Positions 3,471-25,174 of a stretch of DNA of 26,039 nucleotides are shown one piece after another. How positions within the stretch are numbered: position 1 is the first letter of the stretch; each line of letters starts with the position of its first letter. The DNA is taken from positions 1 through 26,039 of IMG/VR virus record IMGVR_UViG_3300028608_000070; one strand, written 5' to 3'. A model generated the notes under the pieces. It saw only the letters and a list, made by a program, of their open reading frames with translations, had not been told where the DNA came from and searched no databases. The translations under genes and the position numbers were made by a program. This DNA is from a virus.

Positions 3471-5318
3471 ATGGCGATCTTCCGCAGGCGTACCCCGAAG
3501 GGCCCGCTGCTTCCCGAGCAGCACGACTCTTCCGTCACGCCCCGCAGCATCACCGCAGCAGCCATGCCGATGGCCGGCCCCGGCGTGAAGATCGCCGACC
3601 GTGCACGCAAGCACTCCGCCAACAACGACTGGCAGAAACAGGGCTGGTACTACTACGACGTCATCGGTGAACTCCGGTCCCCGCTCGTATGGATCGCGAA
3701 CGCCGTCAGCCAGGCCGACCTGCACGCTACCGAGCTGGACCCGGCAACAGGGAAGCCCACCGGCCCGTCGGAGAACCCGACCGCCGTAAAGGCCGCGGCG
3801 CAGGTTCTCGGTGGAGCAGCAAAGCGCGCCACGCTCCTCAAGGTGCTCGCACTGTGCTGGCAGGTACCGGGTGAGGCGTGGGTCATCGTCCGGCCCCGCA
3901 ACACTGGGCAGCCGGACGAGTGGATCGTCCTTCCGCCGTCGCAGGTCACCACCAAGGGCACCGGGGCGACCGCGGCCTGGCAGTACCGGGACCCCAAGCT
4001 CGGCACCGACATCCCCCTCGACGCCAAGTCCCGGCTCTTCCGGGTCTGGTCGCCGCACCCTGCGGACTTCATCCAGGCCGACAGCGCAGTCCGGCCGGCG
4101 CTCCCGATCTGCCACGAGATTGAGCGCTGCTCCCAGACCATCGCCGCCCAGCTGAACTCACGGATCGCGCTCGCGCCGATCATGCTGCTCGCAGACGAAC
4201 TCGACTTCCCCCGCGGCGACCATGAGACGTCAGCGCTCGCCCTGATGGACGAGGTACTTGCTGCGGCTGAGGCATCTGTACAGCAGCCCGGGACACCGGC
4301 GGCTATCGTCCCGCTTGGCCTGAATGCGCCTTCCGAGATGATTGCGGCGGGCGGCGCGGTCGCGTTCGTGTCGCCGACCACCGAGTTCGTGCAGGGCTTG
4401 GATGACCTTCGCGACAAGGCTCTTGACCGGCTCGCGGCGACTCTCGACATGCCGAAGTCCGTGGCAGCCGGGTCTCAGGACGAGTCGAACCACTGGTCTG
4501 CGTGGCAGGTGGAGGAGTCCACCTACAAGATCTTCATCGAGCCGCTCCTACGCGAACTCGGCGACGCCCTGACGGAGCAGTGGTTCCGACCCGCGCTCGT
4601 CACGATGGGGATGACTGCCGACCAGGCCGCCAGGTACGAGATCGGATGGGACACCACGAACATCGTGGCCCGCCCGGACGACCGGGAGACGCTGGAATCC
4701 CTCTACGACAAGGTCCTGATCAGCGACGAGTACATGCTGACGGAGAACGGGATCCCGGTGGACGCCATGCCGGACGAGGCGGAGCGGGAGCGGCGCCTGT
4801 TGGAGAAGTGGGTGACGTCGTCGCCTGCGATCCTGTCGGAGCCGGGTGTGGCGGAGACGCTGGGAATGCCGGAGTTGGCGGCGGCGCAGGCGTCGGCTGT
4901 CGAGGAGGCACCCGAGCCCGATCCTTCGGAGCCGCGGGCCCTTCCGGCTACGCAGGACAGCGAGCCGGAGCCCGAGGCCGTGCCGGACGGTCTGACGGCG
5001 GCGGCCGAGCTGCTGGTCTTCGATGCCCTGTCGCGTGCGGGCGGACGCCTGCTCACGCGCGAGAACCGAGGCCAGTTCACCAGCACCCCCAAGCACGAGC
5101 TGTACCTCCGGATCCCGTTCGACGGTTACGGCGACGGCGTCGTAGAGAGACTGCTGGAGGGCAGCTTCACCTTTGCCGGACACCTTGCCCAGTCCCGCGG
5201 CCTCGACCCGGAGAAGCTGGAGTTCGGGATCCGCGAGCACGTCACGAACCTGCTGACGCATAAGACGGCTCACAGTCAGGTGTCGCTGCTGCGCACGATT
5301 CGGCACTATCTCCGATGA
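3471..5318 (+). CDS. Portal protein
   Basis: The 615-residue protein forms the dodecameric ring at one capsid vertex through which DNA enters and leaves. The actinophage portal signature is clear: an N-terminal segment with NNDWQKQGWYYYDVIGELRS and a central stretch ending in LAATLDMPKSVAAG, then ESNHWSAWQVEESTYKIFIEP. The rest is a helical region and an acidic, Pro/Glu-rich linker (about residues 475-510). The last 100 residues resemble the C-terminal extension of many actinophage portals (SRAGGRLLTRENRG). I chose ATG 3471, two bases after the DUF1360 stop and downstream of GGGAAGG, rather than an upstream in-frame start at 3321. The stop overlaps the MuF-like start. Confidence 0.93.
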   Translation: MAIFRRRTPKGPLLPEQHDSSVTPRSITAAAMPMAGPGVKIADRARKHSANNDWQKQGWYYYDVIGELRSPLVWIANAVSQADLHATELDPATGKPTGPSENPTAVKAAAQVLGGAAKRATLLKVLALCWQVPGEAWVIVRPRNTGQPDEWIVLPPSQVTTKGTGATAAWQYRDPKLGTDIPLDAKSRLFRVWSPHPADFIQADSAVRPALPICHEIERCSQTIAAQLNSRIALAPIMLLADELDFPRGDHETSALALMDEVLAAAEASVQQPGTPAAIVPLGLNAPSEMIAAGGAVAFVSPTTEFVQGLDDLRDKALDRLAATLDMPKSVAAGSQDESNHWSAWQVEESTYKIFIEPLLRELGDALTEQWFRPALVTMGMTADQAARYEIGWDTTNIVARPDDRETLESLYDKVLISDEYMLTENGIPVDAMPDEAERERRLLEKWVTSSPAILSEPGVAETLGMPELAAAQASAVEEAPEPDPSEPRALPATQDSEPEPEAVPDGLTAAAELLVFDALSRAGGRLLTRENRGQFTSTPKHELYLRIPFDGYGDGVVERLLEGSFTFAGHLAQSRGLDPEKLEFGIREHVTNLLTHKTAHSQVSLLRTIRHYLR

Positions 5319-6109
5319 CAACGTTGCCACCCGATGACGGGCTGCCCCAGCGTCTCAGAGCGGAGGCGTTTATCCGCGAGGGCGAGCAGCGGGTTGCCCG
5401 GACATGGTTCCGGTCCCTCACGCGCTGGATGGACCGTGTCAGGCCAGCTGTCGTGCAAGGCGACACGGTCGATCCCGCCCGGGTGTCCGACCATCAGGGG
5501 TTCTGGACGGAGCAGGTGGATGTCGAGGTCATGCCGGTCGTGGACGGCATCCTGCAGCGCGCGGCACGTCGGGTACGGCGCCAGGGCGTACCGCAAGACG
5601 ACTCCTGGGTGTCGACGTACCTCGATGCCGCCGGCAACCGGCTCGTCCGCCTGCCCGACGAGGTGTACGGCCTGATCGTCGCGGAGCTTGAGCGTGGGAT
5701 CCGCGAGCAGGAGTCGATCCCGGACATTGCCAAGCGGGTGTCGACCGTGCTGACGGCGACGGGGTCGGAGCGGTGGCCGAACCGGGCGGTGACAGTCGCG
5801 CGGACGGAGACGCTGGCCGCGGTGAACGCCGGCGTCTACCGCAGCGCGCAGTTGGAGGCCGAGCAGCGGGGGGATCCGGCGCCGTTCAAGCAGTGGATTG
5901 CGACGGCGGATCCCCGGACTCGGGATACGCATCGGGAGGCCGACAAGCAGCGCACCCTGCTCAGCGCTCCGTTCCGGGTAGGGGGCGCGCAGCTCTTGTT
6001 CCCTGGTGATCCGACGGGCCCGGCAAACGAGGTCATCAACTGCAGGTGCAGCCTCTTCCCAGTGGTGCTGGGCGAGGAGATCGACTGGACAGAAAGGCAG
6101 GACCCGTGA
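5315..6109 (+). CDS. MuF-like minor head protein
   Basis: The 264-residue protein carries the signature of the phage Mu F-like domain in its C-terminal half: ARTET at 162-166, ATADPRTRDTHREAD at 196-210 and ANEVINCRC at 237-245. Conserved Asp, Arg, His and Cys positions match the family. The N-terminal half is helical. MuF-like proteins are minor capsid components that interact with the portal and are needed for head assembly. In some phages the C-terminus is replaced by a toxin, but here the domain is complete and ends without an extra module. ATG 5315 overlaps the portal stop (ATGA). Confidence 0.9.
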   Translation: MTTLPPDDGLPQRLRAEAFIREGEQRVARTWFRSLTRWMDRVRPAVVQGDTVDPARVSDHQGFWTEQVDVEVMPVVDGILQRAARRVRRQGVPQDDSWVSTYLDAAGNRLVRLPDEVYGLIVAELERGIREQESIPDIAKRVSTVLTATGSERWPNRAVTVARTETLAAVNAGVYRSAQLEAEQRGDPAPFKQWIATADPRTRDTHREADKQRTLLSAPFRVGGAQLLFPGDPTGPANEVINCRCSLFPVVLGEEIDWTERQDP

Positions 6110-21734: not shown

Positions 21735-21913
21735 AGCGCTGCGCCTACTGCGACCGCCCCATCCTGGGGGACTCCATCAAGATTGCCCCGGAGTCATCAA
21801 GCGGCGCCCGCCCCACGGCCTACTGGCACAAGAGGTCGGTGGACTGCGTCGTTGCCGATGAGAACGCAACCGGTGTCTCGTCTCCCCTGCGCCGCCTCCT
21901 GAATCTTCTCTAA
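21731..21913 (+). CDS. Small zinc-ribbon-like protein
   Basis: The 60-residue protein starts with GTG 21731, overlapping the previous stop, and has AAGGAGGG before it. It carries CAYC (C4, C7) and HKRSVDC (H33, C39), a CxxC...HxxxxxC ligand pattern typical of small zinc-ribbon proteins annotated in Streptomyces and its phages. The C-terminus is a short basic and leucine-rich helix (PLRRLLNLL). Function is unknown; a nucleic-acid-binding or host-modulating role is possible. A longer in-frame reading from 21449 is a shadow of the upstream small gene. Confidence 0.7.
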   Translation: MKRCAYCDRPILGDSIKIAPESSSGARPTAYWHKRSVDCVVADENATGVSSPLRRLLNLL

Positions 21914-21916
21914 GTT

Positions 21917-21956
21917 CCTGCTCGTCCGTGCTCATGGCGGATCACGGACGAGCAGG
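21917..21956 (+). terminator. Perfect 14-bp hairpin after the zinc-ribbon gene
   Basis: CCTGCTCGTCCGTG at 21917-21930 pairs perfectly with CACGGACGAGCAGG at 21943-21956, with a 12-base loop. It begins 3 bp after the zinc-ribbon stop and lies between two convergent genes, so a terminator role is likely. Confidence 0.75.
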
Positions 21957-21960
21957 CCTT

Positions 21961-21995
21961 GGACTCCCGGCCGGCTAGCTTCCGGCCGGGAGTCC
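21961..21995 (-). terminator. Perfect 14-bp hairpin overlapping the end of the XRE gene
   Basis: GGACTCCCGGCCGG at 21961-21974 pairs perfectly with CCGGCCGGGAGTCC at 21982-21995, with a 7-base loop that contains the XRE gene's stop codon (TAG on the minus strand). It fits a terminator for the minus-strand XRE gene whose stem is partly coding. Confidence 0.75.
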
Positions 21996-22238
21996 TCCCA
22001 CGAGTTCTGCGAGGGGTACGTTCAGTCCGTGGGCGATGAGGACGAGGTCGGAGAAGCTGGGGTCGCGCTCTCCGCGCTCGTACCGCTGGACGCTGCGTCG
22101 TTCCTTTCCGATGCGGTCGGCTAGCTGGTCTTGCGATAAGCCCGCTCCTCGACGGAGTCGGATGATGTTCTCCCCCAGGGCCCTGCGCTGGTCGATGACC
22201 CAGCTGGGTAGTGGGGTTCTTCGTGTCGGCACGAGCAC
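21975..22238 (-). CDS. XRE-family transcription regulator
   Basis: The 87-residue protein has a clear XRE helix-turn-helix: LGENIIRLRRGAGLSQDQLADRIGKERRSVQRYERGERDPSFSDLVLIAHGLNVPLAELV (about residues 21-80, HTH 33-55). It is DNA-binding only, with no cleavage or dimerisation domain. The start is GTG at 22238, or a second GTG at 22232; neither has a ribosome site, so a leaderless message is possible. It lies between two perfect hairpins and the probable attP. It may act in the lysogeny switch, but its target is not visible. Confidence 0.8.
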   Translation of the reverse strand: MLVPTRRTPLPSWVIDQRRALGENIIRLRRGAGLSQDQLADRIGKERRSVQRYERGERDPSFSDLVLIAHGLNVPLAELVGGLPAGS

Positions 22239-22374
22239 AACGGTTGAGCCGGGTGATCATGCCAGTCAGTACCCAAGTGGTCGCATTGCGATTCGCTTGC
22301 CGAGACCTCCCACGTGAAGCGTTCCGCTGAGAAGTCGTGGGCGGATGTTCCAGCTGGTCAGGGCCCGGATGCCG

Positions 22375-22390
22375 TTCCGGAATCCTTCCG
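22375..22390 (+). repeat. Arm-type repeat copy 1
   Basis: TTCCGGAATCCTTCCG is an exact 16-bp match to the copy at 22592-22607. It contains a palindromic TTCCGGAA, and with the next base forms CCGGAA-TCC-TTCCGG. Direct repeats beside attP are typical integrase arm-binding sites. Confidence 0.65.
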
Positions 22391-22403
22391 GTAGAGAGCT
22401 GGA

Positions 22404-22419
22404 TTCCGGAGATCTTCCG
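22404..22419 (+). repeat. Arm-type repeat copy 2, degenerate
   Basis: TTCCGGAGATCTTCCG differs from the other two copies at three central positions (13/16 identical) and lies 13 bp after copy 1. The CTGGA just before it also precedes copy 3. Confidence 0.5.
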
Positions 22420-22549
22420 TACGTTCACGACGACTCCAGAAAGCCCATGAAAGGTATGGAAAGTAGTTCCGTCGCAGGTCAGACCCCCCGCAGGGACCTG
22501 ACCTGCTCAGGCTCGGCAAGCCTGGAACATCCTTTCTGGATGCCTTGGA

Positions 22550-23797
22550 TCAGCCGCTGACCTGCGGCAGAGCCTTGATCACCCCCCTGGATTCCGGAAT
22601 CCTTCCGCCCAGCTCGGCAGATTCCTGCTTCGGCACTCCCCACGCCTTGTCCAGCACGTCGCGCGTCCGCTCCTCCGCCTCAGCGAAAAGATGGGCGTAG
22701 GTACGCAGCGTGGTGGCTACGTCCTTGTGGCCGAGACGCTTCTGCACCACCTTCGGGTTCTCCCCGCCACCGATGAGCACTGAGGCGTAGTGGTGCCGCA
22801 GTTCGTGCCAGTGCCGCGGCTGCACTTGCGCTTTCCGGCAGGTGCTCTTGAACGCCCAGTCGAGACTCGACTCACTGATCGGCTGGCGGTCCGCGGTGAC
22901 AAAGATGAGGCCGGCGTACTCGCCATTGACCTGCGGGGGGTACTGGGCAATGTAGGCCGCGAGCAGGTCGATGGCGCGCTGCGTAACAGGCAGGAGGCGC
23001 TTGCCGGCACCGGTCTTGAGGTTGTCGAGGAAGTGACCCTTCCTGGGCTCGTACACCATCTGGAGGTCGACATGGATCATCCTGCGGAGGAAGTCAACTC
23101 TGTCGACGGTGAGTCCGCGGATCTCGCCGGACCGCAGGCCGGTGAGAGCGGTGAACTCGATCATCGCCTCCCATACCGGCTTGTACGCGGCTGCAATGAG
23201 CTGCTTGACCTGAGCAATGTCCGGCGGCTGCACATCCGACTCAACGAGAGTGGGCGCCTTGATCCCGGCGAATGGACTGACGGGGATGACCCGATCGATG
23301 ACGGCCAGCTTGAAGATGGAACGCACGTAGCGGGCGACACGGTTCGGGTAGGACTTCTTCAGCTTGTACTTGGTGCTCAGCAGCTGCTGCCACGCGCCGG
23401 CCTCGGACGGCTTGATGGATCGCATCTCCCTGCTGCCCCATTCGGGGAAGAGGTAGCGCTCCAGGATGCCCAGGTAGTTGTCGTGGGACCGGTCGATGAG
23501 GTTCTGGGCGGGTAGCCACGTCTCAAGTGCGAACGTACGAACTGTGACTTGGCCGGCCCTGGGGTCGAGCCAGGAGCCGGTCTGCTTTGCGGCTTCCTGC
23601 TTGACGATCTCGGCTTCGGCTTCGGTCTTCGTCCGGTGGAGCGAGGTGACCTCAACACCGTTGGGGTCGTCATACCGGGCTTGCCACCGTTTCCCCTTGC
23701 CGTGCGCCTTGGACGCTACGAGCCCTTTGTGCTCGCCGCATTCCGGGTCGTCGGGCTTGGGTCGGGTCTTGTGCCAGCGGTCAGCGACGTATCCCAT
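22550..23797 (-). CDS. int: Tyrosine-type integrase
   Basis: The 415-residue protein is a site-specific tyrosine recombinase for attP/attB integration and, with a directionality factor, excision. N-terminal residues about 1-80 include an arm-binding-type domain (KRWQARYDDPNG, SLHRTKTEAEAE); about 85-180 is a SAM-like core-binding domain (TFALETWLPAQ). The catalytic domain shows R222 (TGLRSGEI), K261 (NLKTGAGKR), H331 and R334 (HELRHHYAS), H357 (LGHKDVATT) and Y367 (LRTYAHL). All key residues are present, so it looks active. I chose ATG 23797 because an upstream start at 23992 would overlap the small gene before it and adds a low-complexity sequence. It overlaps that gene by 17 bp. Confidence 0.93.
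   Translation of the reverse strand: MGYVADRWHKTRPKPDDPECGEHKGLVASKAHGKGKRWQARYDDPNGVEVTSLHRTKTEAEAEIVKQEAAKQTGSWLDPRAGQVTVRTFALETWLPAQNLIDRSHDNYLGILERYLFPEWGSREMRSIKPSEAGAWQQLLSTKYKLKKSYPNRVARYVRSIFKLAVIDRVIPVSPFAGIKAPTLVESDVQPPDIAQVKQLIAAAYKPVWEAMIEFTALTGLRSGEIRGLTVDRVDFLRRMIHVDLQMVYEPRKGHFLDNLKTGAGKRLLPVTQRAIDLLAAYIAQYPPQVNGEYAGLIFVTADRQPISESSLDWAFKSTCRKAQVQPRHWHELRHHYASVLIGGGENPKVVQKRLGHKDVATTLRTYAHLFAEAEERTRDVLDKAWGVPKQESAELGGRIPESRGVIKALPQVSG
22592..22607 (+). repeat. Arm-type repeat copy 3, inside the integrase coding end
   Basis: TTCCGGAATCCTTCCG repeats copy 1 exactly, here within the codons for GRIPES (residues about 398-403) near the integrase C-terminus. A binding site inside the gene suggests that integrase may bind its own 3' end as part of attP. 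Confidence 0.65.
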
Positions 23798-23987
23798 GTA
23801 GTGCCCCCAGGATGAGTCCGGCGTCGAGGCCGGCTCCTGCGAGCGCGTACGCGGCCTGCGTGCGGAGCTCGGGGCGGTGGGCGGCCTCGGTGTTGATGAC
23901 GGCAACAGGTCGGCCGTCGATTCTGGTGGTGAAGGCGGCGACCTTGGCGCCGAGATTACCGGTAAGGACGGTGCTGGACTCGGGCAT
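23781..23987 (-). CDS. Small unknown protein upstream of integrase
   Basis: The 68-residue protein begins MPESSTVLTGNLGAKVAAFTTRIDGRPVAVINTE and ends in an Ala/Leu-rich helix (AAYALAGAGLDAGLILGALHGI). It has no recognised family. Its last 17 bp overlap the integrase start, suggesting coupling and possible joint regulation of integration. Small genes just before integrase genes can encode excisionases, but this one has no HTH and does not look like one. The ATG at 23987 has GGGGGTGTGCC before it. Confidence 0.65.
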   Translation of the reverse strand: MPESSTVLTGNLGAKVAAFTTRIDGRPVAVINTEAAHRPELRTQAAYALAGAGLDAGLILGALHGIRR

Positions 23988-24008
23988 GGCACACCCCCGC
24001 GCTAGGCA

Positions 24009-24031
24009 ACCCGGAGTGATGAACTCCGGGT
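24009..24031. repeat. Perfect 9-bp inverted repeat between repressor and small integrase-associated gene
   Basis: ACCCGGAGT at 24009-24017 pairs perfectly with ACTCCGGGT at 24023-24031, with a 5-base loop. It lies about 80 bp after the repressor stop and 20 bp before the small gene's start, in transcription order. It may be a terminator for the repressor message or an operator for the integrase genes. No T-run follows. Confidence 0.45.
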
Positions 24032-24108
24032 GTCAGGAGCATATGACGCGTGACCACTTAGTCGCTATCCGTATGCGATAAACGTTGAAAGTTGTATGCC
24101 AAACGTCT

Positions 24109-24516
24109 TTAGATCAGCCCGTGTTGCCGCAAAACGTCCAAGGCGGCCTTCGTAGCTGCCTCGATCTCGGCGCCTGACGCGCCGCGGAGGGCTCGTACGT
24201 TCGCATAGGTGATGTCGGCTTCGAGTCGCGCCTGGTCGACCTGCTTCTGCACGGACACGTCGGTCCACCCGCCTGGCGGGGCGCCTCCCTCAAGAACGCT
24301 GTCGACGGCCCCGTCGGGCCAGCCGAGCGCTTTGGCGATGGCGGGGATGGTGTACGGCATGCGGGCTTTGGGAACGGTGCCGGCCTCAGCGTTCTTCACG
24401 CTACCTAGCCCGACGTCAGCCTGGTCTGCCAGTTCTTCCTGGGTTAGGCCGAGGGCTCGTCGTGCGCTGGCGAGTGCCTGGCCGAGCCGTGCCCACGCGT
24501 GGGGGTCGCGGTTCAT
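24109..24516 (-). CDS. XRE-family repressor-like protein
   Basis: The 135-residue protein has an N-terminal XRE helix-turn-helix (LGQALASARRALGLTQEELADQADVGLGSVKNAEAG, HTH about 24-45), a middle segment TIPAIAKALGWPDGAVDSVLEG, and a C-terminal helical part (VDQARLEADITYANVRALRGASGAEIEAATKAALDVLRQHGLI) that may mediate dimerisation. There is no LexA-like cleavage domain. Its place divergent from an early operon, with a repeat-rich region between, fits an immunity repressor. ATG 24516 follows GAGAGGCGGCC. Another regulator role cannot be excluded. Confidence 0.75.
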   Translation of the reverse strand: MNRDPHAWARLGQALASARRALGLTQEELADQADVGLGSVKNAEAGTVPKARMPYTIPAIAKALGWPDGAVDSVLEGGAPPGGWTDVSVQKQVDQARLEADITYANVRALRGASGAEIEAATKAALDVLRQHGLI

Positions 24517-24744: not shown

Positions 24745-24975
24745 GTGCAGCCCGATGGACCCGAAATCCGACGGCAGCGCGAAGAACGCGGCTACGGCCT
24801 GCGCGGATTCGCCAAAGCCGCCCACATCAACCCTGGTTACCTCTCCCGCATCGAGAGAAACCTCCGAAGCCCTCAGCCGGAGGTCATGGCCAGGATCGCC
24901 AGATTGCTTGGATGCCGGATCGCCGACATCCAACGACAGCGAACGGAGACCAACGATGAGCGAGAAGATTGCTGA
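24745..24975 (+). CDS. Small XRE protein, Cro-like by position
   Basis: The 76-residue protein is an XRE helix-turn-helix (IRRQREERGYGLRGFAKAAHINPGYLSRIERNLRSPQPEVMARIARLLG, HTH about 19-40) with a short basic tail. It has no other domain. It starts with GTG 24745, has no ribosome site, and lies next to a -10, so a leaderless message is likely. It is the first gene of the rightward operon and divergent from the repressor, as a Cro-type gene would be. The following gene overlaps it by 20 bp. Similar small XRE proteins in Streptomyces elements lie before an excisionase gene. Confidence 0.8.
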   Translation: MQPDGPEIRRQREERGYGLRGFAKAAHINPGYLSRIERNLRSPQPEVMARIARLLGCRIADIQRQRTETNDEREDC

Positions 24976-25174
24976 CTCGCCCTTCCTCAGCACCAAGGAT
25001 CTCGCCGAGCTCCTCCAGACCACGGCGAACGCGGTGCACATCCTGCGTCACCGCGGTCAGGGTCCGCAGGGCTTCCGGCGTGGCCGAAACGTGCTCTACC
25101 GGCGTGAGGCGGTGGACGCGTGGCTCCGAGCGCAGGAGGCCGGCGACCGTCTCGGCCAGCGCGCCGCGGCCTGA
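24956..25174 (+). CDS. Excisionase/HTH_17-type DNA-binding protein
   Basis: The 72-residue protein is a MerR-like or excisionase winged helix: FLSTKDLAELLQTTANAVHILRHRGQGPQGFRRGRNVLYRREAVDAWLRAQ (about 10-60), with the strand pair R-x-GRNVLYRREAV typical of HTH_17 proteins. It is probably the directionality factor for the integrase, or an early regulator. ATG 24956 follows GGAG (24945-24948). A long in-frame extension upstream to 24671 is a shadow of the XRE gene. Confidence 0.8.
   Translation: MSEKIADSPFLSTKDLAELLQTTANAVHILRHRGQGPQGFRRGRNVLYRREAVDAWLRAQEAGDRLGQRAAA

Follow-up and report, generated by a model that had tools for sequence, protein, structure and literature searches.

Integrase gene and repeats in the window

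The window, which is the whole stretch of 26,039 bases analysed here, is a virus record of 68% G+C. On its minus strand lies a gene for a tyrosine integrase of 415 amino acids (int; 22550-23797), which matched PF00589 (E 2.2e-26) and the PHROG 1 integrase family (E 1.1e-60). The start was placed at 23797 because most of the relatives open with MGYVADRWHK there, and the stop codon is at 22550-22552. The tyrosine recombinase catalytic domain (PF00589) is the one expected of a lambda-type enzyme, and the fold neighbours of the predicted model were Tn1549 Int and lambda Int. Residues 1-73 of the model formed three strands and one helix, with moderate confidence only. Residues 388-415 had pLDDT values below 50, and the C-terminal tail is predicted to be disordered.

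A small HTH protein, encoded on the plus strand at 24956-25174, is a candidate excisionase, as seen from its match to PHROG 66, excisionase and transcriptional regulator (E 4.9e-08). The same gene gave a weaker terminase small subunit match, and HTH_17 was found in a longer ORF. Its product is a possible partner for excision. A 68-aa ORF at 23781-23987 overlaps the start of int and had no Pfam or PHROG match. Elsewhere in the window, a gene for a collagen-repeat protein (PF01391; 680-1243) is immediately upstream of the terminase region. The right end of the window was compared with the phage collection by blastn and no match was found.

Exact copies of TTCCGGAATCCTTCCG are at 22375-22390 and 22592-22607, and a copy with three mismatches is at 22404-22419. 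No further sites with up to three mismatches were found in the 26,039 bases; shuffled sequences gave a mean of 0.18 sites and 0 of 100 shuffles reached three. The minus-strand form, CGGAANNNNNCCGGAA, returned exactly those three sites (shuffle mean 0.05). Read on the minus strand, in the direction of int, each repeat is CGGAA-N6-CGGAA, that is, two CGGAA boxes 11 bp apart. We refer to the copy at 22592-22607, with boxes at 22603-22607 and 22592-22596, as the P arm site; it was identified by pattern and shuffle scans and by comparison with the relatives. The P'1 (22404-22419) and P'2 (22375-22390) arm sites, identified by pattern scan and by their spacing in the relatives, are 29 bp from each other and start 188 bp and 217 bp beyond P, respectively. 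The initial annotation had described a 16-bp repeat with two exact copies and a degenerate third at 22404-22419, and the mismatch scan with shuffles confirmed this. The copy that had been placed in the GRIPES codons of the integrase is indeed within int, in the codons for GGRIPES, and the interval of about 170 bp said to hold an inverted repeat measured 172 bp (from 22419 to 22592), with the inverted repeat present.

This inverted repeat, CAGGTCAG/CTGACCTG, was located by repeat search at 22474-22506 (arms 22474-22487 and 22493-22506, no strand assigned), between P'1 and the core described below. It is taken for an accessory site or a hairpin. The unit CAGGTCAG is not rare, with three sites compared to a shuffle mean of 1.39 and 15 of 100 shuffles reaching three. 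The inverted repeat recurs between core and P'1 in the relatives, including those that carry CGTAA boxes, and when folded, all four sequences tried beat their own shuffles. A covarying RNA hairpin was not supported in a test of 15 sequences, from which L041 was left out: 116 of 135 cells were paired, the shuffle mean was 114.2, and 271 of 1000 shuffles were as high. A scan of 21900-24200 for T-run terminators found none.

Core and junctions in the relatives

Protein scans identified relatives of the integrase at 18 viral and 10 genome loci, two of the latter being fragments; identity was 61-72% (best segment) for the viral loci and 59-75% for the genome loci. The related integrases are mostly from Streptomyces. 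Both prophage junctions were recovered in eight genomes or prophage records, on different contigs in two of these (G010 and G011). The attL and attR of the eight prophages share 29-39 bp, consisting of CACNNNTGGATGTTCCARGC and onward, and this shared block is truncated in G002 and G007, where the contig ends, and in G010, where an N run interrupts it. From these junctions, the attP core of the window was placed on the minus strand at about 22520-22542, where GGATGTTCCAGGC (22520-22532) is common to the dps sites of the relatives. Repeated arm sites are found on both sides of the core that the attL and attR of the relatives share. Putative half-sites of the form CATC-N7-GATG are proposed at 22528-22542; the window, L002, L003, L005 and L022 agree with this model, and the relatives with other cores (L010, L012 and L028) do not. 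L006 was out of register in the alignment of the core flanks.

The initial annotation had put the core probably in the inverted repeat, at 22475-22505, and the junctions moved it to about 22520-22542. One alternative explanation keeps the inverted repeat at 22474-22506 as the core and assigns the CGGAA repeats to another protein. The dyad is strong and central between the repeats, and its fold z-score in the window was -3.48. We consider this explanation extremely unlikely, since the prophage junctions of all eight relatives are in the GGATGTTCCA block, before the inverted repeat.

In 8 of the 8 relatives with both junctions, the junctions are at the 3' end of a dps-type gene. At the dps side, the junction continues an ORF ending in WMFQAE; the two such ORFs that were tested both match the ferritin family PF00210, and the others read alike. 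The phage DNA after the core supplies replacement codons and, thus, the end of the dps-type gene is restored. Six empty dps sites in other genomes, which are those with the exact 15-mer among 14 loci, all end identically and have no arm sites in the next 155 bases shown. In Streptomyces sp. 130 (G011; L022/L035, L048, L051), attP, attL and attR were found in three contigs of one assembly. This suggests that excised and integrated forms of the prophage occur side by side through spontaneous excision. Contig C91 of this assembly (37,997 bases) was considered as a circle and rejected, its ends having no overlap.

A tRNA gene had been named as the probable attB, and the junctions in the relatives point instead to the 3' end of a protein gene. 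ARAGORN found no tRNA gene in the window and none in 26 of the 28 relative loci. Its two predictions were a tRNA-His in L003, 3.8 kb away from int, and a 93-nt tRNA-Arg in L006, which lies over attP and is doubtful.

The window core has only 13 bp, GGATGTTCCAGGC, in common with the dps sites, and AGAAA precedes it in the window. The match does not extend through the codon before TGG, where the window reads AGAAAGGATG and the dps sites read CACCACTGGATG, CACGCCTGGATG or CACGCGTGGATG. Because only GGATGTTCCAGGC matches, we do not claim dps as the target of the window phage. Either exchange occurs within the 13 shared bases with dps as the target, or another gene is the target. A search of viral contigs for the window attB as a 19-mer returned 0 stretches, and 0 of 297 genomes of one family contained it. 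When up to two mismatches were allowed, 1 of 4 genomes had a site, with one mismatch and inside a long unrelated ORF. The attB pattern with one mismatch was found in 4 of 121 genomes of another order, compared to 1 for a control pattern. A scan of 101 genomes for pSAM2-type arms found matches in two, each with a single mismatch. The junction predicted from the relatives falls inside 22239-22607, the interval to which the initial annotation had confined it.

Several other elements were observed near the attP. Between +60 and +113, counted from the core, the A+T content is 53%. At 22343-22353 the core 11-mer is repeated exactly in inverted orientation, as CTGGAACATCC on the int strand. TGGAAC occurs at an equal distance past the arms in 8 of the 13 P' sides printed, one of them shifted by an N run, and it also accompanies other cores (L010, L012, L028). 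The motif GCGACCACTTGGGTAC at 22269-22284 is kept beyond attP in 8 of the 13 P' sides printed and lies directly upstream of a gene for a small HTH protein on the minus strand (21975-22238); that it is an operator or promoter is a guess. In L023 (Streptomyces thermodiastaticus, about 5260-5450), int runs into an ORF reading MVAFLWQDPAAGE, and L028 (860-1000) has a similar core. Cores of the L023/L028 type likely lead to a different target gene.

The probable arm site inside int and its conservation

The CGGAA pair was found in the last 120 nt of 20 of 22 int genes, the window counted, and nowhere else in those genes. After synonymous codons were shuffled within each gene (200 rounds), a mean of 0.09 genes had the pair, with a maximum of 1. 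These genes share ancestry, so the counts are of non-independent events. The count of 22 leaves out L013, L020, L024 and L025, which were judged to be duplicates, the fragments L028 and L029, and L023, which had entered the codon-identity table from a wrong start. The proper ORF of L023 ends in GRIPEPRAAGVRVVQVRR and, therefore, the arm codons are present there too. In L029 the arm site is damaged, and no P' side was seen. A scan of viral contigs for the tandem P' pattern found 12 stretches; among them, L057 lacks both an in-gene arm and a core and seems to be unrelated.

The repeat could be conserved for the protein rather than the DNA, with GRIPES being a functional C-terminal peptide of the integrase and the likeness to the downstream repeats being secondary. 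GRIPE is common among the relatives, as this explanation would have it, but the letters of the boxes are fixed even where synonymous codons are available. The distance between the site and the end of the stop codon is 58 nt in 19 genes; among these, 11 of 11 box columns are identical, and flanking columns average 0.65-0.67. Four of the arm codons are uncommon in the integrase family: AGG is 5.7% of Arg, GGA is 8.4% of Gly, ATT is 6.6% of Ile and GAA is 16.8% of Glu. CCG (55.8% of Pro) is not uncommon. Of these, the use of the family-rare AGG, GGA and GAA counts against a peptide kept for its own sake. Three arm codons are in the top four of 278 conserved positions when ranked by codon identity above expectation; the conservation of the isoleucine codon was not above expectation. 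L015 keeps the arm DNA in another reading frame and, hence, encodes a different peptide, the C-termini of L019 and L027 differ, and the tail is predicted to be disordered. These data make conservation of the peptide very unlikely.

The distances between the sites are also kept. Nine of 10 joined attP regions, that of the window among them, have P and P'1 at a distance of 188 bp, and in the tenth, L015, this distance is 189 bp. From the P arm to the core is 75 bp in all 11 genes with a dps-type core downstream. The window integrase is close to the dps-integrated relatives and has the same arm and core spacing.

L019 and L027 have no CGGAA and carry CGTAA boxes instead. Their first 75 residues are 30-51% identical to those of the window integrase, compared to 64-69% for the remaining protein. 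The N-terminal sequence and the arm letters thus change together in 2 of 22 relatives. In L027, the CGTAA boxes are 11 bp apart, start 75 bp before the core as P does, and overlap the TAA stop. The L019 gene likewise ends in ACGTAA and the contig stops there, so the distance from arm to core is measurable in L027 only. The two records also have dps-side ends (L046 and L041), where GTAA pairs were found at +113 to +145. The CGTAA integrases with the diverged N-terminal domain (L019, L027, L041, L046) form a putative natural switch of arm specificity; in L019 and L027 the switch may have been a single event.

Since the spacing holds both in L015, with its other frame, and in L027, with its CGTAA boxes, selection appears to keep the DNA geometry and not the peptide. 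By the same comparison, the integrase tail looks like a by-product of reading through the arm site. It is most likely that the repeats serve as arm-type sites for the integrase in an attP, and the claim of the initial annotation that one such site is in the coding end of int was supported by the relatives.

Named phages, known systems and interpretation

The layout was also looked for in 26 named phages, hand-picked from match lists covering 1592 records; the first 10 were picked before any result and the other 16 after the pattern had been seen. By an exact test, int contains an X-N6-X pair within its last 130 nt in 7 of the 26, with a direct copy that begins 154-200 nt past the stop codon: Rhodococcus phage Sleepyhead, Arthrobacter phage TripleJ, Gordonia phages Schmidt and Gsput1, Corynebacterium phages phi16 and Juicebox, and a phage whose record assigns it to Pasteurella, for which the case rests on a single 5-mer. 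Five positives were among the 10 first-picked phages and two among the 16 picked later. Four of the 26 have a repeated pair outside the gene only, and 15 have none by the exact test. With the window included, 8 of 27 were positive at a spacer of 6, each of the 15 other spacers from 0 to 15 gave 0 or 1 of 27, and shuffles gave 2 of 8100. The pair in corynephage 304L is inexact, and the annotated attP core of that phage is between the copies. In the distant phages Lrm1 (+1) and WXIN (+58), the first pair is just after the int stop, showing that the position of the stop codon wanders relative to the arm.

Another possible explanation is that the arm within the gene mainly regulates int, the bound integrase limiting int transcription or marking the integrated state. 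The site is within a transcribed gene, and in KplE1, according to the available text, the integrase regulates the gene that encodes it by way of att sites located at the promoter of int (PMC2951348). The site in the window is at the far 3' end of int, however, away from the promoter, and the pairs just outside the gene in Lrm1 and WXIN are what is expected if position relative to the core counts. Regulation as the main role is quite unlikely. The initial annotation had proposed that an in-gene site couples integration to the integrity or the expression of int, and neither was supported. Because the int stop precedes the core, int is expected to remain whole after integration.

The attP and integrase resemble those of lambda in that arm sites flank the core, the N-terminal part may form a domain separate from the catalytic one, and the fold matches that of lambda Int. 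The arm sites of lambda are outside int; here, in contrast, one arm pair is inside it, and the target in the relatives is the end of a protein gene. With the catalytic domain and the flanking arms of a lambda-type system of arms and core, the attP appears to work as one, the twist being an arm inside int that is kept as DNA.

The attP of cluster K mycobacteriophages, as described in the available text, has 11-bp arm repeats that flank the core in pairs, with letters that follow the integrase N-terminus as they appear to do in L019 and L027. Its core is at the 5' side of int, whereas the core in the window is past the 3' end, with an arm pair in the gene (PMC3203893). In pSAM2 and pACPL, which also have an actinobacterial tyrosine integrase, the portion of the source available describes repeats that flank the attP identity segment and that are bound and needed in pSAM2. 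Unlike the repeats here, they are 21 nt long with another sequence, and the target is tRNA-Pro (PMC3364876). In the Bifidobacterium dnaJ2 prophages, a tyrosine integrase targets a gene for a stress-related protein at its 3' end and restores that gene, as with dps in the relatives; the target gene is another one, and the accessible part of that paper makes no mention of arm sites in int (PMC6109161). Archaeal suicidal integrases, as far as the available text goes, share the overlap of attachment DNA and integrase gene in a compact module, but there the att site is in the gene and integration splits it, whereas here the arm alone is inside and int would stay whole (PMC8371274). Samy is described in the available texts as having a serine integrase and a different target (PMC12924846, PMC11302927). 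Among the literature matches listed, which mostly did not cover subscription papers, there was no recognised arm site in the 3' coding end of int and no dps attB.

Taken together, the locus very probably belongs to a temperate actinobacterial phage and is its attP, with composite arms and a tyrosine integrase that is lambda-like; P is in int, and the letters of its DNA appear to be under selection. The N-terminal domain of the integrase would bind the three composite arms, each made of two CGGAA boxes offset by one helical turn (11 bp). P would be bound in the last int codons and P'1 and P'2 where they start 188 and 217 bp on, with the core at about 22520-22542 between them. The catalytic part would bind the core, and the integrase would bridge arms and core in a bent complex, allowing strand exchange between attP and a chromosomal attB. 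With P held 75 bp from the core and int ending just before the core, the reading frame would pass through P. The tail peptide would then be incidental, and selection would act on the letters of the arm DNA. The comparison shows the sites and their spacing, conservation of the DNA over the peptide, the joint change of arm letters and N-terminal domain, and the prophage junctions of the relatives; we infer the binding, the bending, the overlap and the activity of this particular phage.

It is tentatively possible that this holds in several genera. The 3' end of int would have a dual use, with a tail arising from read-through of an arm that is held at a distance and a stop codon that drifts, and int and attP would form one inseparable cassette; the bound integrase might also act on int transcription. 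For the actinobacterial integrase group with prophages in the 3' end of dps, the comparison provides a concrete attP map of three composite arms, core and spacings. An arm site could be lost unnoticed if such an int were trimmed or recoded, a point of relevance to integration vectors. For work on the evolution of arm recognition, the CGGAA and CGTAA integrases form a natural pair.
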